A stretch of 18,558 nucleotides of DNA, taken from Candidatus Firestoneibacteriota bacterium (GTDB lineage: Bacteria; Oederibacteriota; JAAXVQ01). Below are positions 2,831 to 18,526 of the stretch, piece after piece. The stretch's first letter is position 1. Every line of letters starts with the position of its first letter. Location: assembly GCA_013335425.1 (NCBI GenBank), contig JAAXVQ010000006.1, forward strand, positions 1-18,558, in the 5' to 3' direction. The translations under genes and the position numbers were made by a program. The notes under the pieces are model-generated. The model was not told the DNA's origin and did no database searches. It saw only the letters and a program-made list of their open reading frames with translations.

Positions 2831-3823
2831 CTACACCTCCGACACCCACGCCCATAGAATGCCCAATTCGGGTTGGTCGGGCACGATTTTCCAAGCACCA
2901 AATCCCGCGGGCAGCAACAAGACCGTCCCGCGTTTCAACGTTTCAAATTGTTCCCCGAAGACCAAGCGCCCTTCACCCTGGGTTACCACCGCAACTTGAA
3001 ATCCTTGGTGAAGCTTGCCCTCGGCGGGTTGACGATAGGTAATATGCTCACTTAAAAAATGGCTGTCCGCCACCAGCGGACGAACCCTGGAGCCTTCGCT
3101 CTCCCGACCGCCCAAAGGCAGACGCCCTTCGGAGGTATCGTTGAAATCCATTACCGCCAAAGCCTGGTCGATATGCAAAGCCCTGGGCGCGCCTTGCACG
3201 TCGCGCCTGCCATAATCATAGACCCTGTAAGTCACATCCGAGTTTTGCTGAATTTCAGCCAACAGCACCCCGGCGCCGATGCTGTGCACGCGCCCCGCCG
3301 GCAGGAAAAAAGCGTCGTCCGGTCTGGGAACAACGGCGTTCACCATTTCCTCGAAACGATTTTCCATAACCGCGATCCTGATCGTTTCCAAGGTTTGCGG
3401 TTTTTTAAACCCAATGAGCAGTTCCGAGCCCGGCTGATTTTCCAAAATGTACCACATTTCAGTTTTGCCCGATTCACCGGGATGGTGTTCGCGGGCATAC
3501 GCGTCCCCGGGGTGGACCTGCAAAGAAAGACGGTCGCAGGCGCCGATAAATTTGATCAACAAAGGAAAGCGCTGGGCGGATTTGCCTTGGGGGCCCAGCA
3601 GGGCTTGCGGATACTTTTCTATCAAGGCGCGCAACGTGGTGCCGGCCCAAGGACCGTTGGCCACCACGCTGTTTTCTTCGGTTCGGTCGGAAATTTCCCA
3701 AGATTCGCCGATTTTGACCCCCGACGGCACCGGGGCATCCAGGACGTGCGCAACCAGGCTGCCTCCCCAAAGGCGTTCCTTGTAAATATGTTTGAACTTC
3801 AAGGGGTAGTTGGGTGCGGCCAT
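2831..3823 (-). CDS. manA: Class I mannose-6-phosphate isomerase
   Basis: This cytoplasmic zinc enzyme interconverts mannose 6-phosphate and fructose 6-phosphate, linking glycolysis to GDP-mannose and cell-surface sugar synthesis. The 330-residue length matches the short bacterial (Bacillus-type) form rather than the roughly 390-residue enteric form. The expected metal ligands are visible: Q102 and H104 in LQVHPGD, E122 in KTEMWY and H180 in GRVHSIGAG. The active-site arginine is R200 in [10 protein letters not shown]-terminal landmarks are YKERLWGG (15-22) and GESWEISDR (39-47). The start ATG has GGAG seven bases upstream. manA is the first gene of a two-gene unit with clpB, an uncommon pairing. 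It is separated from giant gene 2 by hairpins and has its own candidate promoter. Confidence 0.93.
2835..2840 (-). promoter_or_regulatory. clpB ribosome binding site inside the end of manA
   Basis: Read on the minus strand this is GGAGGT, six bases before the clpB ATG. It overlaps the last codons of manA, so clpB is probably translated from the manA transcript, possibly with translational coupling. Confidence 0.75.
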
Positions 3824-4014: not shown

Positions 4015-7000
4015 TTACGCCGCCCGCAAGGCGCTGATGATGCGGTTGCGCTCCATCGGCATGATCTGCTTGCCTTGGTCGTCATAAAGCAACGGGAACG
4101 TACGCATAAACATCTCCAAATGCATCGGCGAGGTCCGCAAAATATCGGGCATATTCAAAATCAAGGTTTTCACTTCCCGCTCGCGCACGGCGGTCATTTG
4201 CACCAGGGTTTGATTGTCCGGGTCCAGCAGGGAAATCAACACCAAGAGGGAGTCCGCATACCGGGGCGAAACATCCTTGCGGGAAAGCTGCACGACCAAG
4301 GTGGTGAGCAGACTTCGGACCAGGCGGGCGCTTTCCGCCGCATTCTTGGACTGATCCACTTTAGCCAACTGATCTTGAAAACGGCGGACAAAATGCAAGT
4401 CGCGCAATTCCCGACGCAAGGTTTCGATCCGTCCGGCTTGGGTTGCCTCGAGGTTGGTCAGCGCGTTCAATTCCTGAAGTTCCGCGACCCGGCGTTGGCG
4501 TTCGTTTTTCATATCTTCGGAAGAAAGCATAAAAAGCCCACGCAGGGTCGGATCCAGCTCTTGGTGGGCTTCAACTTGTTTAAGCATATAAGTCTGCTTG
4601 GCAAAATACCAGGCAACCTTGTCCATGCCCAAAACCTGGTCGACGAGCATGAGCAGTTCCGGGTTCAAGGCATTGAGATCAATATGACGAAACTTTAAAA
4701 AATCCATGAAACGAATTTTGGTCAGGAAATTCTTCAGCCATACCAAGTGCGTAAACGAATAGCGCAATGAAGCCGGAATTTTGGCATCGCCGACTTTCAA
4801 ATCCTCCAGTCGGCCGCCTTCCTCCCGCAGGGTCTTCTCCAACTTGCTCAAGTCGGCCAATTGCTGCCGCAGCATGGGATCCTGGGGGTCATTGCCGTAA
4901 CGACCTGTTACAATTTTCGCCATTAAATACAAAGCGGTTAAAAATTTCGGATGAATCACAATGGAAAAAATCGGCAAGCGCTGAGCTTTGAACCCTTTGG
5001 CATCCAGGACGCTGCCTGCTCTCCATAAAGACCGGGCAGTCAGCGTAAACGCCGCGACGCCCAGAGCAAGCCACGAAAAGAACCGTTGGAACCCTTTGAA
5101 CGTCAAAAATTTCGTCTGCATCTTCTCGGGTATCGCTTCGGCACCCGCATACACCCGGTCCGGGTTGTCCGTAGCCCGGGCATCCTCCAGCAATTGTTGA
5201 AATCCGGAGAAATTCGAAAGCTGGCTTTTGCCCTGTTCCACGCCGCGTGCATGGCCCGCGTTGGTTGAGAAGCAAATGACGCTGTCCTGTACCCCGAGGT
5301 GTTCCGTGAACTCTCGGGCTTCCGCCTTCGAAAGCTGCCGGCCTGCCAAGGTTGTGAGTTCGGAAAGATCTTCAAACTGCTGCGTCCCTTGCGCGTTCAT
5401 CGCCGCTTCCAGGAGATCCAAGTCGCGGGTCAGGCTGCTTTCCCAAACTTCTTCCGCCAGCGCCTGGGTGGACCCGGCATGTGTCGTCGCCAGGCCTAAA
5501 TTTTTCCCGATTGCGCTTAAACCTGAAAACGCCGCTTCCTTGGACAACATGCTGGAGGCGCCGGAGCCGAAGACCAGAAGCTTGTTATTGCCTTGACCAA
5601 CCAAAGACGCGGCCAACTGTTTAAAGACGTTGGGCGAAAGTGTGTCCAAGGCGACGCTCACGGCCTGGGCCCCGGCTGCAAATGCGGCCTTAAATTGTGC
5701 GGCTTGGCCATCAATCAATTGCCGCAAAGTCAACATCCGCTGATAGCCTTGCGCGCCGAGTTGCGTTTGCAGCAAACCGGTGGCGGCGGAGTCCACCAAA
5801 ATCCGGACGGGAAAAGCCGATAAGTTGAAATTCCCTTCCAGGTCACGAACCTGGGCTGCGGTCATCTGTCCTTCCGCAACATTGAAATTTCCCAGCAAAT
5901 CCTTGACCTCGCCTTTTTCCATTTGTTCGCGGGTTAACAAAAGCAGATCGCGATACTGAAGTTTGGACTGGTCGTCCAAGGACGTTTTAAGGTTGTTGCT
6001 GAACGATTGAATGTTTTCCGGGATGGACTTGCCGGAAAATTGGTTGATTGGAATGCCGATGACTTCGATAGGAATACGGATCGTGCCGTCCTCGTAAACA
6101 ACAGCGGTTTGTCCCGGGAAAACCCCGGTTTTCAGCGCCGCATTGTCCGCGCCTGCTACAACGGCCCCGTTTCCTGTGGAGAATCCAACCCCGTTCTGCT
6201 CCCCTGAAAAATCGAAACCCAACGTGCCTTGCCCCGGCGTGATCGCGATCATGCCGTTCACCGAACCCTGAGCCGGAAGGCTTGCGGGTACGGCCTGTTG
6301 GAAAGCCTGCAACAGGCTGTCGGGATTTTTATTGCCGCTCAATTGGGCTAAGGTAAAACCGCTCGGACTCGCGCCGGAACCGCCTTTAACACCTGTTCCG
6401 CTGCCGGAAAGATCGATCAGCTGCAAACGGAGCGCTTGCACAAAATTCGTCCAAATGAGGGAATTGGCGCCTTGACCCCCTTGCAGGTCGCTTCCCGACA
6501 CCAAGCTCGCCAACGCAGCCAACAGGTAGGGGTCGTTGGACATGAAGGTGAACGAAGGTAGCTTTCCCTTCGGCGGAGGCACGGGTTGGGAATTCCACAG
6601 ATTTAAAAACGAACCGAGCAAAGAGGGCAAAAGGGCCGCCGCCCGGCCCGCCGCCAAAGCCTGGTTCGCCGCATTCATTTGCGGCCGAGTCGTTGCTTGA
6701 GCAATGGGCGCGGTTGCTGTCGACATTTTGATATTGGTGCCTGTCGAATTGGCACGTTGGGTTGAAGGCAGGTCCAACGGCGCTGTCCCTACAGCGGCTG
6801 AACGCGGCATCGTATTGGTCACGCCTTTTCCTGATTGAGAAAACAATGCGGAATTTTCATTACCCAAGAAGGTCCCTGAAGCGCCATTAAACACTTGGCT
6901 TGTATCGCTTTTATCCAACTTCAGGCCCAAATTGGCCACGCCATTTCTTGATTGGGTCGTGGCATTTTTAATACTTGTCAAAACATCGATCGCTGATAGC

Positions 7001-10000
7001 CCGGTTGATGTTTCCGACAGATGTGTGGCGCTGACACCTGAAAAGGCCACCGCCTCAAAACCAACGACAACGCTTGGGCTCAAATGCGAATTGCTTTTAA
7101 CCGCTTTGCTGTGGGCAATGGTATCTAAAATCTCATTCATTTCGGCGCCCTTCCGCGACATGGGCGAATTTTCATCAGGCATATTGTTGGTCGCCGAATT
7201 TTCGGCAAGAACAATATTCGGGTTGAGCGAACTTTCGCTCTGATCGGTAACCGCCATAGATTCCGGTTGATTCTGACGGAAAAAGTTTCCCAGCAGTTGA
7301 GAAAACGCGCCAACTCCGGGCAGCGCCGCTTGGGCGAACTTCAAAAACGCTGCCACTGCCGGGCTTAAACCGGCGGCCAAAGCCCATTCCTTCCGGAGCG
7401 CTCTGGTAATGTTAATATTTCTGCTTAAATAAAAATGATACGCATCAAAATTTCCGGCCTGACGACTGGCGTCCAATTTTTTAACCAAAAGGGCATTTTT
7501 CTTGAAGAATTCACGCTCCCAGGCCCGCAGCGGAGGATCATGAAACAGGGATATAAACGGATGTTTTTTCTCGGTGGTGGAAAACGCCGTTTCTATTGCT
7601 TTGGCGACATCGGAAACCGAAATATTCTTTTTTTCCAAAACATCCCCATATTGGCTGGAAAGAAAGTCCTCAAGCGTTCCCTTGGCTCGGGCTTCGTCCA
7701 GTTTAAAAACAACCTCCATTAATAGTTCATCGTTGAGCGTATAAGTTTCCAAGTCTATTTTAAAAATTCGTTGCAGCCAGTAACTCTTTTCACCAATTTC
7801 GTAATCGAAAATGGATCCACGGTCATTTTGATTTTCCAAATCCCACCAATTGCGAATAAGCGTGTCCAGGTATTCTATTCTCTTATCGGCGGCATACATG
7901 GCGACTTCTTGCGCTGCTTTCACGCTGTTTTTATAATTGACCATGCTGTGGGTTAAAGCCTCGTCCTGTTTCCACATCTTCCGCCAATACTCAAGAGAGC
8001 AGTCCGCCAAACTGCGATCCGCTTTGTTCCGGTATTGGTCGATAATTTCCGGATGTTCTTTGAGAATACGAGCAAATTCAAAATCTTGAAGAGAGTAGAT
8101 TTGTGAAAGTTCCTCTTCCCTCGACTCTTTCGCCGAATTATCACCAACCCGATCCAAACGCTCCAACTCATTTTTCAGTTCTACCAAATTTTCGAAATTG
8201 CTTAATATTTCAGGAATATGCAGGTTTTTTCCATGCCGGTCTTCATGAAAATATGAAACAAACATAAGAAATAGAAAATTTTCAGGTTTTATCAACGCCT
8301 GATAATCGAACGGGCGGGTGCTTTTGTCTTCAAAGCGACTATTGCCTTCAAGTATTGTCTGTTTTAAGTCTTCCAGGACCTCGTCGCTATAAATGTGCTT
8401 GAAAACCCATGCGACCAAACGCCCGCGCTGGCCTACCAATAATTTGTTAATCAAGAACGAATCAATTACTCCCTCAATATACTCGCGGGGTAAGCCATCT
8501 GTCTGTACCACCTCTTTAGTGACATCGCGCCCTCTTTGATGAAACCTGACAAACCTTGGAAAAATCATATAAATGCTATTGATGATTTTTCCCTGTCTGC
8601 CATTTTCAGGCTTGTTGATAATGGGACGGCTAAGTGCCGGACTGCTTACAATGTCCGGCATATTATCAATGTCAAAATCCAGGGTGTTGATGTTCAGATT
8701 GGTAGTGCCCGTGATAAAACCTTGTCCCAGTAAAGACAAATAGTGCGCTACGGTTCCTTTTTCTTCAGGTGTCATAAGCTGGTAGGCGCCGCTGAGAACA
8801 CCTTCAGCGCCAAAAATCTCTTCTATTTTCACTTTAAATCTGGCCAATGCTTGTCGAGCCTCCAAATCAAACTGGGTGTCTCCCAGGTTGGTTTCAGGAT
8901 ATGATTTTTGCGCCAAATCGGCAATTCGGTTCGGAACCTCCAACCCTGTAACAATGATTTTTTTTTGAGCCTGCGAATCGCCTAAGGTACTCCCGAAAAA
9001 AGGAAGTCCTGCCATCAGCACTTGTCCGAAATCTTGAAGAACCTGACCGTGATCTATCGAGCCGGCAGCTTGAACCGTCAGCAACGCTTTTAAAGGGGCA
9101 ATCCCGCTTGCAGCCTTCAACACATTTTCCACCATGCTCCCGAGAAAGCTTAAATGATTGCCTGTCGGCGCAGGCAACGAGGAATTGAGTTGGGTGATAA
9201 AATCTGAAAAAACCGCGCCACCGAACACATGACTGAACAGGGCTCCTATCATCAAGGTAAACGCAACCGCATTGCGCCAAGTCAAAACATCGGAGATTTT
9301 TAAGTTGGTGAAACTGGCCAAACTCCAGGCCACCAGGCCCGCCGAGCCCAAGGCCAATAAGACGGGCATCAGGGCCGAGGAAAAAGCCGCCAAATACAGC
9401 AACGCACCCACGCCCAATACGGCCAAACTTGCAGTCCTCACCAGGGGTGAACCCAAAACTCCCAGCAGGCTTCCATCGGGCGGCAACGATTTTAAATTTT
9501 CCGCCTGACGGAACGCAATAACCCGGTCAATATTCCGATCCACGTACAATTTACCGTTTATAACCGTCAGATAAAATCCCGAGCCGCGCGGCAAGGACAA
9601 TTTAACGATCCCGTCCGAACGGCGTTCCATCGTGTTGCTTCGCGCCTTGCCGTCCGCAAACACCGCCTGCACCTTTTTGAACGCCTGGATTAATCCAAGA
9701 CGAAAACTCAACGGGAGCAACTCATCGGACGGGGCAATGGCATTACCCGAAGCCGGCCAAGACGCCACAAGCCGTTCGAGTTCCGTGGGCTGATCCGGAT
9801 AACGCAGACGAAGGAAATAATTGTTGGCCGCCGCCGGGTCGACTTGACGGGGACGGACAACCACCACCGACCAGCCTTGCGCCCTGGCTTGTTGGGCGAT
9901 GCCTTCGGTATGGAAACCTCCAGCCACCAGGACGGCTTGTTGTTCGCCGCGGACCCGGAGACGCGCCGCAGTTTTTTCCAACAAAGCCCGGTTGCGCAGC

Positions 10001-11088
10001 CCGGCCAGTTGGTAAAACACCAATCCTTGCTGCATGCTTTTTTCCAAGGCCGTCATATCTTCGCCGGCAATCGCGTCCTCCCCGGCACCCAACTTGAGTT
10101 TGCGGCATTCGGCCACCAAATATTTTTGGATGGCCGTCAATGAGACGTTGCGGGAAGCGGTCAGGTAGGCATCGATTTCCGCTTGAGAGGCGGAGACGGA
10201 TAAAATGTGTTCTGCCGTTTCCAGATACAAGGCGTACTCCAGAAGCTTTTTTTCATTGGAGGTTTTCAGCAGTCGCGCGCGCAGTTTTGTTTCCAGTTCA
10301 CGATCAAGCAGTGCGGACTCATACAACCCCCAGCTTCGACTTCCGTTGCCGAACGCTTCCAGTCCCGAAAGTATATTGTACTTCAATGCTTCCCGAATCA
10401 AGCTGCCGTGGTAAGCGCGCACATCCATCCGCCCCTGGAGCATGGCTTCGCGCCGTTTTTCAAACGCCAAAAGCTGCGGGTTATAGTAACGCGCCTGCAG
10501 CAGTTTGATTTGATCCGCCAGTTCCAAGACCAGGCCGCGGTTGCCGTCCGTGACAAAATCCCGGATCAAAGACAAACTCTGCGCATAAAGCCCCCGGTTT
10601 TCAGCGCCAAAAAGCTCCACTTGCGGCCGGTCGCAGATGGCCAATACGTCCGCGCCCGTAAGTTTGCCTTCCCGCATAAAATAATCGGCCACAGCCTGCT
10701 TGCCGGGCGTGTCGGGAAAATCAGCCAACGCCCGGGTCGGGATTATCCCCGTGGCGCCTTCAACGGCGATGAGTTTAAGGTCGGGGTTTTTTTGGGTAAG
10801 TTCCCCCAACAAGCGGCGGATGTTGCCTTGGACTTCATAATTGCAATGCAAGTCCTGGATCAGATATAGGGTGGTGCCCGCGGTTCCGCGATTGGCCGAG
10901 ATCACTTTGCCCAAGTTCGGTGTAATGGCCGGGGCGGCGGCCATGCCCGGCTCCATGTCATAGGCTTGAATTTGAAAAGCCCAGCTCATGGCCGGAAACA
11001 AAAAACTAACGGCCATACCTAGGGAAATAACCCTCCGAAAAATTGAACAGGTTGGTTTAGACCACACCGAAAGACTCAATGACAACAT
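4015..11088 (-). CDS. Giant membrane/exported protein 2 with ChaN/TIKI-like head (2357 aa)
   Basis: I do not recognise this as a named gene. Residues 1-40 form a signal-anchor-like segment (two arginines at 18-19, hydrophobic core, then FPAMSWAF). The head, about 70-430, carries LIQDLHCNYEVQ (76-87), VEGATG (109-114) and VAGGFHTEGI (388-397). Their spacing and look recall the ChaN/TIKI/EreA-type fold, where paired histidine motifs bind metal or haem; this is inference. A membrane-helix cluster follows at about 548-632. A long helical part, about 640-1270, is encoded by AT-rich DNA and contains an HEDRH sequence (948-952). Next are a Ser/Thr/Asn-rich linker (about 1273-1500), a Gly-rich probable beta region (1607-1694), a possible nucleotide-fold segment near 1830 (LLVFGSGAS), a membrane helix near 2000-2020 and a charged helical tail with coiled-coil potential. 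It is a paralogue of the next gene upstream. The ATG has GGGGGT five bases upstream and a strong promoter. Function is unknown. Confidence 0.9.
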   Translation of the reverse strand: MLSLSLSVWSKPTCSIFRRVISLGMAVSFLFPAMSWAFQIQAYDMEPGMAAAPAITPNLGKVISANRGTAGTTLYLIQDLHCNYEVQGNIRRLLGELTQKNPDLKLIAVEGATGIIPTRALADFPDTPGKQAVADYFMREGKLTGADVLAICDRPQVELFGAENRGLYAQSLSLIRDFVTDGNRGLVLELADQIKLLQARYYNPQLLAFEKRREAMLQGRMDVRAYHGSLIREALKYNILSGLEAFGNGSRSWGLYESALLDRELETKLRARLLKTSNEKKLLEYALYLETAEHILSVSASQAEIDAYLTASRNVSLTAIQKYLVAECRKLKLGAGEDAIAGEDMTALEKSMQQGLVFYQLAGLRNRALLEKTAARLRVRGEQQAVLVAGGFHTEGIAQQARAQGWSVVVVRPRQVDPAAANNYFLRLRYPDQPTELERLVASWPASGNAIAPSDELLPLSFRLGLIQAFKKVQAVFADGKARSNTMERRSDGIVKLSLPRGSGFYLTVINGKLYVDRNIDRVIAFRQAENLKSLPPDGSLLGVLGSPLVRTASLAVLGVGALLYLAAFSSALMPVLLALGSAGLVAWSLASFTNLKISDVLTWRNAVAFTLMIGALFSHVFGGAVFSDFITQLNSSLPAPTGNHLSFLGSMVENVLKAASGIAPLKALLTVQAAGSIDHGQVLQDFGQVLMAGLPFFGSTLGDSQAQKKIIVTGLEVPNRIADLAQKSYPETNLGDTQFDLEARQALARFKVKIEEIFGAEGVLSGAYQLMTPEEKGTVAHYLSLLGQGFITGTTNLNINTLDFDIDNMPDIVSSPALSRPIINKPENGRQGKIINSIYMIFPRFVRFHQRGRDVTKEVVQTDGLPREYIEGVIDSFLINKLLVGQRGRLVAWVFKHIYSDEVLEDLKQTILEGNSRFEDKSTRPFDYQALIKPENFLFLMFVSYFHEDRHGKNLHIPEILSNFENLVELKNELERLDRVGDNSAKESREEELSQIYSLQDFEFARILKEHPEIIDQYRNKADRSLADCSLEYWRKMWKQDEALTHSMVNYKNSVKAAQEVAMYAADKRIEYLDTLIRNWWDLENQNDRGSIFDYEIGEKSYWLQRIFKIDLETYTLNDELLMEVVFKLDEARAKGTLEDFLSSQYGDVLEKKNISVSDVAKAIETAFSTTEKKHPFISLFHDPPLRAWEREFFKKNALLVKKLDASRQAGNFDAYHFYLSRNINITRALRKEWALAAGLSPAVAAFLKFAQAALPGVGAFSQLLGNFFRQNQPESMAVTDQSESSLNPNIVLAENSATNNMPDENSPMSRKGAEMNEILDTIAHSKAVKSNSHLSPSVVVGFEAVAFSGVSATHLSETSTGLSAIDVLTSIKNATTQSRNGVANLGLKLDKSDTSQVFNGASGTFLGNENSALFSQSGKGVTNTMPRSAAVGTAPLDLPSTQRANSTGTNIKMSTATAPIAQATTRPQMNAANQALAAGRAAALLPSLLGSFLNLWNSQPVPPPKGKLPSFTFMSNDPYLLAALASLVSGSDLQGGQGANSLIWTNFVQALRLQLIDLSGSGTGVKGGSGASPSGFTLAQLSGNKNPDSLLQAFQQAVPASLPAQGSVNGMIAITPGQGTLGFDFSGEQNGVGFSTGNGAVVAGADNAALKTGVFPGQTAVVYEDGTIRIPIEVIGIPINQFSGKSIPENIQSFSNNLKTSLDDQSKLQYRDLLLLTREQMEKGEVKDLLGNFNVAEGQMTAAQVRDLEGNFNLSAFPVRILVDSAATGLLQTQLGAQGYQRMLTLRQLIDGQAAQFKAAFAAGAQAVSVALDTLSPNVFKQLAASLVGQGNNKLLVFGSGASSMLSKEAAFSGLSAIGKNLGLATTHAGSTQALAEEVWESSLTRDLDLLEAAMNAQGTQQFEDLSELTTLAGRQLSKAEAREFTEHLGVQDSVICFSTNAGHARGVEQGKSQLSNFSGFQQLLEDARATDNPDRVYAGAEAIPEKMQTKFLTFKGFQRFFSWLALGVAAFTLTARSLWRAGSVLDAKGFKAQRLPIFSIVIHPKFLTALYLMAKIVTGRYGNDPQDPMLRQQLADLSKLEKTLREEGGRLEDLKVGDAKIPASLRYSFTHLVWLKNFLTKIRFMDFLKFRHIDLNALNPELLMLVDQVLGMDKVAWYFAKQTYMLKQVEAHQELDPTLRGLFMLSSEDMKNERQRRVAELQELNALTNLEATQAGRIETLRRELRDLHFVRRFQDQLAKVDQSKNAAESARLVRSLLTTLVVQLSRKDVSPRYADSLLVLISLLDPDNQTLVQMTAVREREVKTLILNMPDILRTSPMHLEMFMRTFPLLYDDQGKQIMPMERNRIISALRAA
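7087..7137 (-). repeat. Single related motif in giant protein 2 linker
   Basis: Residues 1318-1334 (NEILDTIAHSKAVKSNS) match the giant protein 1 motif at the I-L-D, I, S-K and final S positions. It sits in the equivalent low-complexity linker. A weaker second candidate (DVLTSIKNATTQS) follows at about 6960-7000. Confidence 0.45.
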
Positions 11089-11093
11089 AAGAC

Positions 11094-11099
11094 ACCCCC
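11094..11099 (-). promoter_or_regulatory. Ribosome binding site of giant gene 2
   Basis: GGGGGT on the minus strand, five bases before the ATG at 11088. Like the site of giant gene 1 it is a run of G rather than a textbook AGGAGG. Confidence 0.55.
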
Positions 11100-11200
11100 A
11101 CTTTCAATTAAACTCATCAAAGAACGCGCTTATGCAAAATTCACTAAAAATCTTAAATCTTCATTAACGCTATTTTTGTGATCGGCTTAAAATCATTACT

Positions 11201-11229
11201 ATTATATCACATTCAAACGTCTATTTCAA
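11201..11229 (-). promoter_or_regulatory. Near-consensus promoter of giant gene 2
   Basis: On the minus strand TTGAAA (11224-11229) and TATAAT (11201-11206) are separated by 17 bases. A TG one base before the -10 makes it an extended -10 as well. It sits in the AT-rich 191-bp spacer between the two giant genes, giving an untranslated leader of about 105 bases. It is the strongest promoter-like sequence I saw in the window. No clear terminator for giant gene 1 lies in the spacer, so read-through is also possible. Confidence 0.75.
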
Positions 11230-11279
11230 AATCGAACACCTTTTAACCTAGATAATCTTTTATTTTCAAGCGTTTTCCT

Positions 11280-14200
11280 TTATGCCGCGCTATCCATGGT
11301 GAAGGACTTGGGCGGAAATTCAAAACTCGGCTTTTCTTTTTCAGGCGACAGACGATGCATCAGAGCCGGATTGTCCGCAATCTCCGCAGGAATTTCCGAT
11401 GATTGTCCCGACACAATCACGCGCGTTGCAGACAACACACCCGGAACTGCAGCCGCTGCTTCGGCAGCCGCCAAGGCGTTCTTCGCGTCCTGGGAAGTAC
11501 GAATTCCGCGGATCTGAGTCTTGACCCGATCCATGAGATCTGCCCGCCACAAATTTCCCATAAAACTCACAACCATTGCCCAGGCAACCTCTGTTCCGGG
11601 GATAACCTTCCCGGCGCTCCACAATGCGTTAAGCAGTCCGACGCGCAGGCGGGAAGAGAGTTGGGAAGTTAGCCGGAAAATACCCGGGATCAAATTCAGG
11701 CCGGAAGGCTTGGGAAGTTCCAAGCGGAAATTTGAAATAAACCCGCGCACTTGATCCGCCCAGGTCGGTCCTTGTTGCGGTTGAATGCCGAGTTGGGCCG
11801 CTTGCAAAACAGGAGCCAGCGGTTCATTTGGGTCTGGCAGCAGCTCGTTTCCGGCACTCGGATTGGACGCCTCGGTCTTGGCTTGCGTGACCACCAGACC
11901 GGTTTTTTTGGGAATCGCCGCCTCTTCTTGGCTGGAGGGTTCCGATTTTTCCGGTACGGCAAACACTTTGTCCAGTTTCAAAGTCTGCGTTTCCTTAGGT
12001 ATGACAGCCGAAGGTATGACAGCCGATGCGGCCGATTTAGCGTTGATGATCTCATCTAAGATTGACCCAGACGACTTTTCCGACTTAACATAATTGGCAC
12101 CTTTTACGACCGCCGGGCCTTCCGTCTTCAAGGTTGACCGCTTACTTTTCTCTGTGGGAGCGGCCAAAACAACAGCGATTTGAGTGGGCCCCGAAACCTC
12201 AGATTTATCAACATGTGCGGCGCCCTTTTTAGTGGTCACGTCCGTTTTCTCTCTCAGGTTCTTGGCTGCCTTATCCTTCTTGCCGGAAGCGACCGATTGA
12301 GCGGACGCAATTTGGTTCAAGATTAAAGTGCCGCCCGGTTGGGTTGCAGGCGCAACCGATTTTTCAGAGAGAATGTTTGCTTTCACCGCTGGTTTCTGAT
12401 CGTCCGTCGGCAATATGCCTTTAGCCGCGGAAGCAGCCGACTTAGAGGCTGTGATCTCGCCCAGAACCGCATTCTTTTCTTTGGCAGTTGATTTTTTCGT
12501 TACGGGTAATTTTTTAGGCGCGGTATCCGGTGGTTGCGTCGCTGCTTTGGCCGTACGCGCGGCTGCATTGACAATCACATTTCCTTCCTTGCCCGGAACT
12601 TGGGTCGTTGCCTGTTTCTCAGTTACGTTTTTCGCACCGCTTTCCTTGGGCAATACTTTTTCAAGGCTTTCTTTAGCAACTTTAACAGGAGCTTCGGCTG
12701 ATTTTGCCGCGGCAATGGCATCCAAAGGCGAACCAGCGGACACGCTTGCTTTGCCTGGTATTGACTTTGGAGACACTTCTCTTTTTGGTTGCGCTTTCGC
12801 GACCTGAACTTTTTTTGTCGCTAGGGTTTCAGATGTTGCAACTTGGGCGGGAACCATCGCGCCATTGCCCGGAGCTTGAGGTGCCGACTTATTGGACATC
12901 ACCGGATTGATCCTTTCCGGAATTTTCTTTTCAGAAATTTCAGAAGTGTTTTTTTCTCCGTTTGATTCCATCGCTTTGACGTTCTCATGCCGATTAGCTC
13001 TATGCCCGGCGGACTTTATTTCCGCCGCCACGGACGCCTCGACGGTTGATGCCGTCTGCACCTCGCCCAAGGTGCGCTTGATTTTCGCTAATTGTTCCTT
13101 AACCTTTCCTGAGATTTGTGCTTGGTCGCCTTCACTCTCATCGCTCGGTTTCTCCGGATGGTAACCCAGCAGGGGGCTCAATAATGGCTCCACCAGGGCC
13201 AGCGTGATTTTCCGTTCTTGCGCCAACCGGGCCATGGCCGGGGCTTGTTTTTCCATGACCGCCAGCGCCAATAAGCGCTGCGGAAACGCAGCTTCCAAAC
13301 CCTGACCCACAGCAAACGTGGAAGCGGTAAGGCCGTTTTTCGTCGGATTGAACGAGGCTTGAGAAAGCGCTTTAACGGCATTGAGCAATTGGTTGCTCGC
13401 TGCCGTCGCCTCGGCGGGCAAACCGGCAGCCAACGGCTGGTTCAGTTTGGCCCTGACGGCTTTCAGCGCTTTTTGTCTTTCAACGAAGAGTTTATGCCCG
13501 GTTTCCCCCACGCCGAACTTTTCAAATACATCTTTTAAATCCGCTTGAATGCTTTTGATCAAATCAGCCGGCCGATTTTCGGCTGGCACTTTCGCCCAGA
13601 CTGCTTCCCAGACTTTGCCGGCCTTAGCCAAATTCTCCCAAAGTGCAGCTTCCGGGAACGCGACCCGCATCAGCTGCGCGAGCTGGGAGTCGCCCTTTAG
13701 CAGAAGGTCCGCGGACACGAGCTTTCCTGCCTGTACCAGCGCAGCCAGCTCTTCGCCCTGGGCCAAGTCGCGGACAAAGGCCAGCATTTTTTCATCCGGC
13801 GTGAGGGCGGCGTCCTCGCCTTCGAGGCTTACCGGGGTCAACGGGGTTTGGTGCCAGCGGATGGCCAACAACCCCAACAACCGCGGATCGCGCAGAGCCT
13901 GGTCCATGACTGCTTGCTCGGCCGGACTGAATTTATCCTCATTGGTAAACCCCTTCAAGCGCTCCACCACGGTTTCCACCGAAGTTCTGAACATGGTGCC
14001 TTCATACTCGGGCTTACCAAAACCAAAAGTTTGAATGGAGTACCCAATGGCCCGTTCGATCAAATCATCTCCCTGGGGTCTGGGCAGCCGGCGACCTTTT
14101 GGCATGACTTGACGGGTTACCGTGGTTCCCACCCAACCGAGCACCGGCAGCAGTAAAGCGCTCAAGACGCTCAGATAACCGCTACGGCCGGAGGCAACCG

Positions 14201-16370
14201 GAGAAACTGCCTGAGTCAGGGCGTCCACCGTCTGCATCACCCACGGGCCCATTTGTTGCGAGAGGAACGCGGCCAGCATGCCCACGCCCAGCGTGAAGCC
14301 GTATTTCAACCCCTGGGGAGTTTGGGCATTGGTAAGTACGAAGTACGCAAAAATCATGGCACCGACCACCAACGCCAGCTGGCTTGCGGCCAGCAAAGCC
14401 GCGGGCAACGTAAAGGTCGCGCTGACCGCCAAAGCCGCCAGCAGCACGGCACCGCCGATCGCCTGCGGCTGCCAAGCCGCGGCCGCGTTTTTAATTCCCT
14501 GCCAGGCGTTGGCGGCCGCCGCCAGCAACGGTTGCCAACCCGGAGCGGTCTGAGCGGTTTCTTCCAGGCTTAAAAGTTTGTTGCGGTTTTCAGCCAAGTC
14601 CTTGGCCTTGACGATTTCCATCTGATACCCGTTGCCGAGATCTTCCTTGGCCTGAATGAACGGCAAATAAGCGGAGTTGTCGGTTACGTTGGCGGCGGGA
14701 CGCAGCACCACGGCATAATCGGACCCTTGTACCGGAAAAGCGTAAATCCGCTTCTTCAGATTGGAGACCGTGCCCTGGTAATTGAAGAACGCCGGAGAAC
14801 CCGCCTGGGCCGCGTCCAGGGCCTGCAAATGTTTGGCCAGAAATGCTTCGGAGTCATGCCCGGTTTCGAGGAGATCCTCAAGTTCCTTATAGATCTCCCG
14901 CACTTCTTTCCAATATTTGACAAAACCCAGCTCATTAAACGCCGAAGGCGGCGCGAACATGTTTTGACTTTGCGCCAGCAGGGCTTCGGCCGGGGCGCGG
15001 CGGTTGAGCAGCAGGGAAAAATAGGGGTTCTCGTCATAGGTGTGCGTGAGACGGGGTTTGATGGTGAGAAAAGAAACGCTTTGCTTTTTCAAAGCCGCTT
15101 CCACTTGCTGGTTGTGATAGCCGCCCGTAATCAACACGGCCAGGGTCTGCTGGTGCCGGTTCATCTGCCCGAGGATGTTTTGCACAAAGGCCTCGGAGCG
15201 TTGATCGGCTACTTCGTAAAAGTGCCCCGCGAGCTTGAGGTATTCGTCGAGTTTGACCACCCCCGTGTCCAGCGTGGAAGACACGCCGTTGCGGTAGGCG
15301 AGATTGTCCAAAAATCCCACCAACGTGGTTATGGAAAACTCTTCGCGATGCGCCCGGTAGTAATCCAGTTCTTTGGCCGTGGCGCTGATGGCCAGCATAT
15401 CGGCCATGATCTTCAACATGTCGGCATAATGATCCAAACGGCGCTGGTCCGGGGAGGTGTACAAACGTTCCCGGACGGCCTGGTCCAGATCCGCGGCATC
15501 GTCCACCAGTTTGTTATAATCCGAGTCCGTGGTGACAGGCACACTCTGCGTTTGGGCAAAAAGGTTCATGTGCGGAAACGTTGCCAAGGCGACGCCTTGT
15601 TTTCGGCTCTGCTCCAGTAAAAACTGGCAGTAGGTTTCCAGGGAAATAGTTTCACCCTCAAACTGCTCGCGGAAATGGTCTACCTTGGCCAGGTCCGTGG
15701 AGTACAGGGGCGCTTTGAGTTTTTCAATGACGTCTTTCAAATCCCCGCAGTACCCTTGGGCTTTTTCTCCCAAAAATTTCAGCAACGTGGTCTTGTCCTG
15801 CTCGTAGAGCGCTTGGTCTTCGACTCCCTCCAGCAGAAGAGTCGGGTGTCCCGTGGCGGCCAAGTACTCGCTGCCGGTTATGCGTCCGCGTTTTAAAAAG
15901 TACTGCCCGACATTGGTCTTCACCGTAGGGCGGGGAAACTCGGCATGTTGCCGGACGTTCACAGTTCGGCTTTCGCCTTCAACGCCGATGAGTCTGAGCC
16001 CGTTCTTTTTCGCCAGCGTGCCCAAAAGCGCGGCAATGTTGCTCTGCACTTCGTAATTGCAATGAAGGTCATGAATATACACCACGGTTTTTCCGGATTT
16101 TCCACGGAAACTGCTGACCACACGTCCCAGTTCCGCCGACACGTCAACCGCCGCTCCGTTGACCACAAAAGCACTTCCCGCGGAAAGTTTTCCCGCCGAC
16201 ACCGGGTAGGTCGCGGCCTCGAAAGCAAACGCCAGGGTGGGAAAAATAAACGAAGCCGAAACCATCAGGGTAATGCTCTTCACCCAGGTCTGCCAAAACC
16301 ACGACCGGCGCAGCAGCCACCCCCGGGAAAAACCGTTGGTCTTCAATTTTTGATCAACCGGATGAGCCAT
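11280..16370 (-). CDS. Giant membrane/exported protein 1 with ChaN/TIKI-like head (1696 aa)
   Basis: Not a recognised gene. I chose the ATG at 16370 over an in-frame ATG at 16427 because GAGGGGG lies eight bases upstream and the protein then starts with an ordinary signal-like segment: an n-region with arginines (20-22), a hydrophobic stretch 33-49 and a possible AFA cleavage site near 48. The head (about 93-455) holds YIHDLHCNYEVQ (98-109), GVEG (129-132) and ITGGYH (414-419), followed by KPR and NPYF, all matching giant protein 2. Three or four membrane helices follow at about 631-744. A helical region runs to about 1100. The linker, rich in Lys, Ala, Ser and Thr (about 1110-1500), contains four clear copies and one weaker copy of an 18-residue motif. 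The C-terminal 190 residues include two hydrophobic patches and end in DSAA. Both histidine motifs suggest a metal- or haem-binding or hydrolytic head by analogy only. No lipobox cysteine is present. Confidence 0.9.
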   Translation of the reverse strand: MAHPVDQKLKTNGFSRGWLLRRSWFWQTWVKSITLMVSASFIFPTLAFAFEAATYPVSAGKLSAGSAFVVNGAAVDVSAELGRVVSSFRGKSGKTVVYIHDLHCNYEVQSNIAALLGTLAKKNGLRLIGVEGESRTVNVRQHAEFPRPTVKTNVGQYFLKRGRITGSEYLAATGHPTLLLEGVEDQALYEQDKTTLLKFLGEKAQGYCGDLKDVIEKLKAPLYSTDLAKVDHFREQFEGETISLETYCQFLLEQSRKQGVALATFPHMNLFAQTQSVPVTTDSDYNKLVDDAADLDQAVRERLYTSPDQRRLDHYADMLKIMADMLAISATAKELDYYRAHREEFSITTLVGFLDNLAYRNGVSSTLDTGVVKLDEYLKLAGHFYEVADQRSEAFVQNILGQMNRHQQTLAVLITGGYHNQQVEAALKKQSVSFLTIKPRLTHTYDENPYFSLLLNRRAPAEALLAQSQNMFAPPSAFNELGFVKYWKEVREIYKELEDLLETGHDSEAFLAKHLQALDAAQAGSPAFFNYQGTVSNLKKRIYAFPVQGSDYAVVLRPAANVTDNSAYLPFIQAKEDLGNGYQMEIVKAKDLAENRNKLLSLEETAQTAPGWQPLLAAAANAWQGIKNAAAAWQPQAIGGAVLLAALAVSATFTLPAALLAASQLALVVGAMIFAYFVLTNAQTPQGLKYGFTLGVGMLAAFLSQQMGPWVMQTVDALTQAVSPVASGRSGYLSVLSALLLPVLGWVGTTVTRQVMPKGRRLPRPQGDDLIERAIGYSIQTFGFGKPEYEGTMFRTSVETVVERLKGFTNEDKFSPAEQAVMDQALRDPRLLGLLAIRWHQTPLTPVSLEGEDAALTPDEKMLAFVRDLAQGEELAALVQAGKLVSADLLLKGDSQLAQLMRVAFPEAALWENLAKAGKVWEAVWAKVPAENRPADLIKSIQADLKDVFEKFGVGETGHKLFVERQKALKAVRAKLNQPLAAGLPAEATAASNQLLNAVKALSQASFNPTKNGLTASTFAVGQGLEAAFPQRLLALAVMEKQAPAMARLAQERKITLALVEPLLSPLLGYHPEKPSDESEGDQAQISGKVKEQLAKIKRTLGEVQTASTVEASVAAEIKSAGHRANRHENVKAMESNGEKNTSEISEKKIPERINPVMSNKSAPQAPGNGAMVPAQVATSETLATKKVQVAKAQPKREVSPKSIPGKASVSAGSPLDAIAAAKSAEAPVKVAKESLEKVLPKESGAKNVTEKQATTQVPGKEGNVIVNAAARTAKAATQPPDTAPKKLPVTKKSTAKEKNAVLGEITASKSAASAAKGILPTDDQKPAVKANILSEKSVAPATQPGGTLILNQIASAQSVASGKKDKAAKNLREKTDVTTKKGAAHVDKSEVSGPTQIAVVLAAPTEKSKRSTLKTEGPAVVKGANYVKSEKSSGSILDEIINAKSAASAVIPSAVIPKETQTLKLDKVFAVPEKSEPSSQEEAAIPKKTGLVVTQAKTEASNPSAGNELLPDPNEPLAPVLQAAQLGIQPQQGPTWADQVRGFISNFRLELPKPSGLNLIPGIFRLTSQLSSRLRVGLLNALWSAGKVIPGTEVAWAMVVSFMGNLWRADLMDRVKTQIRGIRTSQDAKNALAAAEAAAAVPGVLSATRVIVSGQSSEIPAEIADNPALMHRLSPEKEKPSFEFPPKSFTMDSAA
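12015..12734 (-). repeat. Degenerate 18-residue motif, five copies in giant protein 1 linker
   Basis: Copies begin at residues 1213 (12681-12734), 1263 (12531-12584, weaker), 1300 (12420-12473), 1347 (12279-12332) and 1435 (12015-12068). The shared pattern is a hydrophobic pair, then D/N/G-E/Q/A-I, two residues, A/S-K/Q-S-A-x-S, as in GSILDEIINAKSAASA. Spacing is irregular (50, 37, 47 and 88 residues), and the DNA of the copies has diverged, so this looks like retained protein motifs rather than a recent tandem duplication. Confidence 0.6.
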
Positions 16371-16669: not shown

Positions 16670-18346
16670 TTAAGCTCTTTTCCGAACTGCGAAAGCAACT
16701 GCCAGGAGGGAAAAAAATAAGATAAGGAAAGAAAACACCACGATATTGCCGAAGCGGGTAAAAAAAGTCCGGTAGTTCGGGGTATAGGCGACATCTTCCA
16801 GCTTGAACCCCTCTTGAAAATAAGGCAATGGCCGGGAAATGTTTCCCCAGGGATCAATCAGACAGGTGGGTCCCGTCATGTTGGCTTTGGCCATGTACAC
16901 GCGGTGCTCAATAGCCAAAAACACGGACATAGCCGTATGCTGGTAGCTCATGGCCGAGGTCCCGGCCCAGCGGTCATTGGCCATGCCCGCAAAAAGCCGC
17001 GCGCCCCGCCGGGCCAATTGAAAGCCCAGCTCTTCAAAATGATCCTCATAGCAGATCAGCGGCGATAGGTTCAGATCGCCGAACACCAGGGACGCATACT
17101 CATGCCCGGGTTCAAAATCCACGGGAATGGGTTCGCGCACCACGGCATGCAGGAATTTTTTTAAAATCTCCCAGGGTATGTATTCCCCAAAGGGAACCAG
17201 TTTGATTTTACGGTAACGCCCGAGGGTTTCGCCGGCGGGGCCGAGCAAAAACGAGCTGTTGTAATGATGGTAGCCTTGACCGTCGGCGTTGTTTTCCTGG
17301 ACGTATTCGTTGCTGGTCAACAACGTAGGCACGCCCCCGGTTTTAACCAATCCCCGCAGGCGGTCTTCCCATTCGCGCTCGGAGGGGTAATCCAAAATCC
17401 CCGGGAAGCAGGATTCGGCCCAAATAATCAGCGCCGGTTTTTGGGCCACGGCCTGAAGGTGCAGGCGCTGCATGCGGTCCAGCAAACTGGTTTTGTATGC
17501 CCGGTCCCAACGCGCGGTGGTGTCGGTGTTGCCTTGCAGCAGGGCTACACGGAAATGCTTTTGCGGAGCGCGTACAAACATAACGGCCTCGACCGCGCCC
17601 ACGCCCAAGAGCACCACCCACAGTGTCACCAGCAAAGCCGTGACGCTGCCCAGCACCGGGCGCTGCTGCCACTTTGCCCGCCACGCGGCCGGCTTGACCG
17701 CCTGCGGCCAGGCTCCTGGCCACGCGCCCCACCCGGAGGCAACCACACGCGCCAGCGCCTGAGCCAGGATCACATTGACCCAGGCTACCAGAAAAGAAAT
17801 CCCGCCCACCCCGGCCGTGGCCGCGATTTGCCGGATGAGCACGTTGCTGTATTGCGTATGCCCCAAGGAACCCCAAGGCCAGCCGCCGAAGAGCACATGC
17901 CCCCGCAGGTATTCCCAAGCCACCCAACCCAAAGGCAGCACCAGGGCATCGGGCCAGCGGAGCCGCTCGGAAACAAACTTGGACGTGGCGCTGAAAAGCC
18001 CCATGTAAAAAGCGCCGCAAACGGAAAAAATCAGCCAGGTGAATTGATTGCTGACATTGGTGTCGCGGTTGATCAACGTGATCCACGACAAAATCCCCAG
18101 ATAATAAATGAAGCCCAGCACCCAACCCTGCACGAAAGCGCCGCGCCAGCCCGATTGTCGCCATAGATAAATGAAGGGCACCAAGGAAACCCAGGCCAAA
18201 TACCCCGGAACGGCGGAAAAAGAGGCGACCCAGACATTGGGCCAGGAAAGCATGAGCAATATGCCGGATAAGGGAGCCAGAGCCCAAAGAACCCAACTCG
18301 GAACATTTTTCGCTGCGGTTTTCTCAGGCGGGGTGGATGTCGGCAT
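16670..18346 (-). CDS. lnt: Apolipoprotein N-acyltransferase
   Basis: Lnt adds the third acyl chain to the N-terminal cysteine of lipoproteins at the periplasmic face of the inner membrane, completing lipoprotein maturation in diderm bacteria. The protein is 558 residues, slightly longer than the roughly 510 of enterics. Seven N-terminal membrane helices (between about 18 and 257) precede a nitrilase domain (about 265-525), and a last helix lies at 534-554. The catalytic triad is visible: E311 in IIWAES, K380 in YRKIKLVPFGEY and C432 in SPLICYED. Landmarks LEHRVY-like AIEHRVYMAKAN and IDPWGNI close the domain. I chose the ATG at 18346. A TTG at 18424 would add 26 residues without membrane character. 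No Shine-Dalgarno sequence precedes the ATG, and a -10 element lies only seven bases upstream, so the message may be leaderless. Its next genes downstream encode exported proteins without a lipobox. Confidence 0.93.
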   Translation of the reverse strand: MPTSTPPEKTAAKNVPSWVLWALAPLSGILLMLSWPNVWVASFSAVPGYLAWVSLVPFIYLWRQSGWRGAFVQGWVLGFIYYLGILSWITLINRDTNVSNQFTWLIFSVCGAFYMGLFSATSKFVSERLRWPDALVLPLGWVAWEYLRGHVLFGGWPWGSLGHTQYSNVLIRQIAATAGVGGISFLVAWVNVILAQALARVVASGWGAWPGAWPQAVKPAAWRAKWQQRPVLGSVTALLVTLWVVLLGVGAVEAVMFVRAPQKHFRVALLQGNTDTTARWDRAYKTSLLDRMQRLHLQAVAQKPALIIWAESCFPGILDYPSEREWEDRLRGLVKTGGVPTLLTSNEYVQENNADGQGYHHYNSSFLLGPAGETLGRYRKIKLVPFGEYIPWEILKKFLHAVVREPIPVDFEPGHEYASLVFGDLNLSPLICYEDHFEELGFQLARRGARLFAGMANDRWAGTSAMSYQHTAMSVFLAIEHRVYMAKANMTGPTCLIDPWGNISRPLPYFQEGFKLEDVAYTPNYRTFFTRFGNIVVFSFLILFFSLLAVAFAVRKRA

Positions 18347-18352
18347 AAAATA

Positions 18353-18361
18353 AGTATAGCA
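18353..18361 (-). promoter_or_regulatory. Extended -10 promoter directly before lnt
   Basis: On the minus strand TGCTATACT, with the -10 hexamer at 18353-18358. Transcription would start at or next to the ATG at 18346. No convincing -35 is seen at 16-18 bases. The surrounding 12-mer equals that in the giant gene 1 promoter. The remaining stretch to 18526 shows no gene. Confidence 0.5.
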
Positions 18362-18526
18362 TAAAAACCTGTTCGCGACACTCTCTCCGAACACTACCGA
18401 AACCGTTTCCGCCTTTCGTCTCAACGTTCAGAGCCTAAATTTCCCAACAAATTTATCCACGGATTTTACCAATAGCCACGGCTTAAAGAACTTTATGGCA
18501 CGAATAACCAAACATGTGACACATCG

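Follow-up and report, generated by a model that had tools for sequence, protein, structure and literature searches.

Two adjacent giant proteins with a common head

The window analysed here, one entire contig of 18,558 nucleotides (JAAXVQ010000006.1) from the draft genome of a Candidatus Firestoneibacteriota bacterium, carries on its minus strand two adjacent genes for very large proteins, A and B, whose open reading frames (ORFs) of 5.1 kb and 7.1 kb are separated by 191 bases. An earlier note on this DNA described them as tandem giant paralogues with homologous N-terminal heads, and a whole-genome search bears this out: the heads are 30% identical over head residues 1-423 (E 2.2e-46). All the blocks named there are present, namely the signal-like segment, DLHCNYEVQ, VEG, GG(F/Y)H, the hydrophobic segments past the head and the low-complexity linker; the glutamate of VEG, placed by the note about 25 residues after the DLHCNYEVQ block, lies 28-29 residues after the histidine. 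The length given for B, 2357 amino acids (aa), stands, and that given for A, 1696 aa, corresponds to an internal ATG at 16370, the full ORF encoding 1715 aa. The signal-like and post-head segments of both proteins were called by simple hydropathy alone, and Pfam gave nothing above cut-off in full-length A or B, nor in either head.

Fold and active-site residues of the head

Structure prediction and a fold search, proposed earlier as the check on a relation to ChaN, TIKI and Ere, yielded models of both heads (scores in Table 1) with a beta-sheet core and flanking helices, as in Ere, ChaN and HopBA1. The best structural neighbours of these models include ChaN; a BFVD structure search with the head gave no match at E<=0.001, and comparison with PDB sequence profiles gave only unrelated matches (E>=0.14).

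Four residues, His, Glu, Arg and a late His, are invariant in 108/108 full-length heads, a count that covers the loci collected here rather than every known head. This set comprises 36 unique heads from the order of the window (44 hits, 38 of them full length) and 72 unique heads from elsewhere (87 hits, 79 full length), and the heads of other phyla are only about 22-29% identical to those of the window. The arrangement resembles that of the TIKI/Ere/ChaN superfamily (EreC, BcR135, ChaN, HopBA1, RRSP), which has the same core with flanking helices and a His-Glu pair close to adjacent core strands, a basic residue and a late His at similar distances: the His-Glu spacing is 28 residues in A and 29 in B, against 28 in the published passages on the superfamily, and the conserved Arg precedes the late His by 28 residues in both proteins, against 29 for the basic residue in those on RRSP. 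The heads differ from the superfamily in that its Glu-x-His motif is mostly replaced by Asp-x-His (Asp in 93/108 heads, Glu in 4/108, a non-acidic residue in 11/108), in the long helical stretch that separates the strand near residue 130 from the late His, and, for the window heads, in reaching no curated family and in continuing into very long tails that contain hydrophobic segments.

The distance from the curated families is considerable. Window A scores 13 bits with the ChaN model (Pfam PF04187; cut-off 27.7), and neither window head exceeds the curated cut-offs of Ere, TraB or DUF5682. Over 193 other genomes, the ChaN and DUF5682 models gave 44 and 45 matches at E<=0.1; among the 30 loci fetched for each model, 25 matches lay inside heads, mostly near the GGxH end. 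No head match passed the curated cut-off of either model, DUF5682 exceeded it in 0/193 of these genomes, and the sole ChaN match above it was a locus without a head (L215). ChaN proper was also sought in the phylum of the window and rejected (0/45 genomes at E<=0.001). Taken together, the residue pattern and the predicted fold support the assignment of the head to the TIKI/Ere/ChaN hydrolase superfamily as a divergent member, in line with the earlier note.

Table 1. Features of the two giant genes in the window. pLDDT, predicted local distance difference test; pTM, predicted template modelling score.
Feature	Position	Strand	Basis
Protein A, TIKI-like head giant, 1715 aa	11280..16427	minus	ORF, genome homology, head clade
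A signal-peptide-like hydrophobic segment, ends AFA/FE (PTLAFAFE)	16221..16283	minus	hydropathy, sequence
A head domain, model pLDDT 89.0, pTM 0.85	14946..16223	minus	structure prediction
A D120-x-H122 motif, end of core strand	16062..16070	minus	predicted secondary structure, conservation
A E150 (VEG), 28 residues past H122	15978..15980	minus	conservation
A R410, conserved basic residue, 28 ahead of H438	15198..15200	minus	conservation
A H438 (GGYH)	15114..15116	minus	conservation
A hydrophobic cluster past head, about 3 segments	14109..14450, approximate	minus	hydropathy scan
A low-complexity linker, 4 copies of LDxIxxAKSA-like motif	12018..12725, approximate	minus	motif search
Protein B, TIKI-like head giant, 2357 aa	4015..11088	minus	ORF, genome homology, head clade
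B signal-peptide-like hydrophobic segment, ends SWA/FQ (PAMSWAFQ)	10975..11034	minus	hydropathy, sequence
B head domain, model pLDDT 89.7, pTM 0.87; D79, H81, E110, R365, H393	9727..10977	minus	structure prediction
B hydrophobic cluster past head	9199..9408, approximate	minus	hydropathy
B C-terminal region, best-kept tail part among B orthologues	4018..6717	minus	alignment

Distribution and history of the family

The head matches 18 places in its own genome, A and B included, two of them short fragments. It was found in all eight genomes of the order (8-29 matches each, which may include fragments); the remaining 37 genomes of the phylum and 14 further ones gave no match. When 384 genomes were searched with a profile at E<=1e-10, 20 had heads, namely the eight of the order and 12 of 339 from other phyla, with 0/37 in the rest of the phylum. 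In the phylum of G059, an Omnitrophota genome, heads are frequent (102 of the 193 genomes sampled, at E<=1e-15), and eight genomes picked for holding heads gave 2-83 matches each, many heads being split into two. Of 427 matches in a pattern search, 367 encode a relative; among the best 80 of these 367, kept as 77 loci, the record titles read FCPU426, Firestonebacteria, Omnitrophota, Auribacter fodinae or plain 'bacterium'. The profile search suggested in the earlier note returned relatives, and the pair proves to be part of a multi-phylum family. Its statement that no named family has this architecture holds insofar as we found no name for the headed giants in the open-access literature. Homology across genomes and phyla rules out chance or spurious frames. 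A viral origin was rejected as well, 17 pattern matches in viral contigs including no relative (plasmid and phage records were not searched).

In a quick unrooted tree of 116 heads, not all that are known, one clade (Shimodaira-Hasegawa-like approximate likelihood ratio test, SH-aLRT, 100) comprises the B heads of every one of the eight order genomes, and another (SH-aLRT 95) the A heads of six genomes, the window and five others of the order. By this tree A and B are conserved orthologues, and a third clade of 26 further heads (support 98) is, on the same sequence evidence, an expansion within the order; one branch (support 92) divides the order heads from the heads of Omnitrophota and their relatives. 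In 4/4 genomes that have both genes on one contig (G000, G002, G004, G006), A and B are neighbours with the same orientation. Elsewhere in G002 four headed giants follow one another on one strand over about 33 kb, the contig ending within the last (L204-L206, G002:C34:15666-48713). Five short Omnitrophota proteins of 481-635 aa (L120, L122, L125, L128, L129) have a head without a long tail, and it is possible, judging by sequence, that they represent the ancestral form.

Size and domain content of the tails

The tail of A is scarcely conserved among orthologues, in contrast to the C-terminal region of B, which is 37% identical to the same-genus orthologue over 929 columns and, over its last several hundred residues, matches G002, G003, G004 and G005 as well. 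The LDxIxxAKSA-like pattern, derived from A, matched four times in 182 giants and large ORFs, always in A and in 0/181 others; B has a looser ILDTIAHSKAV that resembles it.

Headed relatives within the order reach 28.4 kb, and the longest headed frames read encode 9,482 aa and 9,337 aa, filling most of a 64.5-kb contig with no N. Listed frames of more than 10,000 aa were accepted only after being read: a 24,620-aa frame (G469:C22) was discarded because it runs through a stretch of N. An uninterrupted frame of at least 28,374 aa, without N, was read on another contig (L336-L340, G084:C47:74879-160000, minus strand; 39,033 aa by the search listing, start unread); around residue 23,300 of the stretch that was read lies a SecA-like domain. 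In eight sampled stretches the head is present in 9/14 ORFs of at least 2,000 aa, and one of the five headless ones is truncated at the start. Not every giant is defined by the head, and headless giants also exist.

Pfam detected no tail domain at E<=0.01 in nine of 16 headed giants scanned singly. The domains found include GH5, GH130, GNAT and a sub-threshold GH99; starch synthase and GATase; a helix-turn-helix domain (L099); methyltransferase, NUDIX and LOG (L103); SecA (L074); and, in a further scan, SecA, M23 and PIG-L. Glycan-active enzymes recur among these recognisable domains. In one headed bacterial giant of 7,861 aa (L341-L342, G126:C3) a SecA-like motor occurs together with LysM and with a 1,3-beta-glucan-synthase domain (PF02364, E 2.6e-40), the latter from a family known from eukaryotes.

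Giant ORFs of Omnitrophota, together with the V. archaeovorus giant, are treated in PMC10066038, whose relevant passages describe them as poorly understood, with several transmembrane segments and few annotated domains, and link them to predation or adhesion. A and B likewise have very long ORFs, several probable membrane-spanning segments and hardly any annotated domains, and many Omnitrophota giants have the same head, of which those passages make no mention; the window ORFs belong to another phylum and measure 5-7 kb, against more than 20 kb for the giants described there.

Export modules inside giants

A second, divergent SecA lies within a giant frame in five of the eight order genomes, and in four of the eight SecY stands ahead of it in the same frame. 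The head shares that frame in G004, G005 and G006; the contigs of G003 and G007 end before the frame starts. Two headed giants have SecY as well as SecA (SecY was not detected in that of G006), and one of them also has TolC-like domains and a cellulase: this 9,337-aa protein (L179-L180, G004:C4:2956-30966, minus strand) unites in one frame the TIKI-like head, SecY (E 1.9e-47), SecA-like domains, several TolC-like (OEP) stretches (best E 1.1e-24) and GH5 (E 3.5e-6).

Among 30 head-bearing genomes of other phyla, nine have SecA-like domains over the cut-off in long frames (10 frames, listed at 1,008-39,033 aa). Seven of these frames were read; the head is present in four (G126, G065 and two in G064), and the other three (G081, G084, G115) are open or unread at the start. 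The SecA profile built here missed the G065 giant, which the Pfam model matches. A profile made from six SecYs of the order found no SecY in the other-phyla giants read; few of these were also scanned with the Pfam SecY model. Most of the SecA-like domains, though not all, keep the Walker A, DE-box and motif VI residues. PMC5562318 describes a laboratory-made SecY-SecA fusion with activity in vitro. The giant frames of the four order genomes likewise have SecY and then SecA in one chain; unlike that laboratory construct, their fusion is natural and involves a divergent SecA, which in one giant stands with SecY between the TIKI-like head and TolC-like domains.

Possible functions

Starting from the homology, predicted fold, residue conservation, distribution and tail domains observed above, we favour, with a probability of about 0.6, the reading that A and B are members of a family of very large exported proteins whose TIKI-type hydrolase heads act outside the cytoplasmic membrane in a common service role, the tails being specific to each member. 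In the predicted layout a signal-peptide-like segment is followed by a head of about 400 residues, usually by hydrophobic segments, and then by a long variable tail. The head would most likely hydrolyse peptide or ester bonds outside the cytoplasmic membrane, with R410 and H438 acting together with the His-Glu pair (H122/E150 in A). Since the same conserved head stands before widely differing tails, a service shared by every member appears likeliest: the head might mature or release the giant polypeptides, or trim envelope material at their site of display. Member-specific functions would reside in the tails, and some giants carry SecA-like or SecY-SecA export modules. On this reading the giants are exported and membrane-anchored, and their intact TIKI-type hydrolase head perhaps serves envelope processing or maturation.

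A more ambitious version, which we consider unlikely, makes the headed giants a self-contained export and display system, in which one or two members in each genome bear a SecA motor of their own (some also SecY, one TolC-like domains) and export the others, while the head, as a maturation protease, cleaves them or sets them free at the envelope; it draws on the domain content of a minority of members.

Similarly doubtful is a role of the giants as contact-dependent weapons or as proteins for predation, with the head as a common trafficking or processing module and variable tails acting on other cells. Polymorphic toxins also have a conserved N-terminal part, and the many copies, sometimes in arrays, the conserved head with variable tails and the glycan- and peptidoglycan-active domains in some tails would fit, as would the link of Omnitrophota giants to predation or adhesion in PMC10066038. 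However, the families listed for the scanned tails, one listing giving 25 of 28, include no Pfam toxin domain (genes for immunity were not looked for); biosynthetic and regulatory domains are present in the tails too; and PMC7031533 reports relatives from the lineage of the window as cellulose degraders.

That the head is a TIKI-fold pseudoenzyme or binding scaffold seems still less probable. The prevalence of Asp at the first acidic position, and its loss in 11 heads, could be read in this way, and a superfamily member without the catalytic motif, PMT, is reported in PMC6254334; yet the other four residues are unchanged in every head despite the low identity across phyla. Binding of haem or another cofactor for uptake, the ChaN-like variant raised in the earlier note, is very improbable: although ChaN is a near structural neighbour and its model matches heads weakly (2/63 members; 25/30 fetched loci), no head among its 44 matches reaches the cut-off, which the headless L215 alone exceeds, and the conserved residues fit the published hydrolase set of His, Glu and Arg.

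Gene neighbourhood

On the minus strand an Lnt-like gene (16670-18424) precedes A, and B is followed by a ManA-like gene (2831-3823) and ClpB; the Lnt and ManA names are those we presume from a reading of the sequence, and the ClpB identity is borne out by the follow-up search. ManA follows B in G000, G001, G002 and G005, and ClpB is nearby in G000, G001 and G003. Positions 1-416 of the window appear chimeric: ClpB homology extends only to about base 417 (about residue 826 of its frame), beyond which the plus strand encodes a SecD-like fragment (E 6e-6), so that the left end looks, from its sequence, like a misassembly or a broken ClpB end.

Significance

The head common to many very large proteins across phyla adds to the TIKI superfamily a large bacterial family present in multiple copies. 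If they work, the natural SecY-SecA fusions in giants would be an unusual export arrangement, and the exit of such large proteins would be directly testable. For many Omnitrophota giants, a common conserved head, presumably exported, provides a handle, a candidate active site open to testing and a means of counting them.
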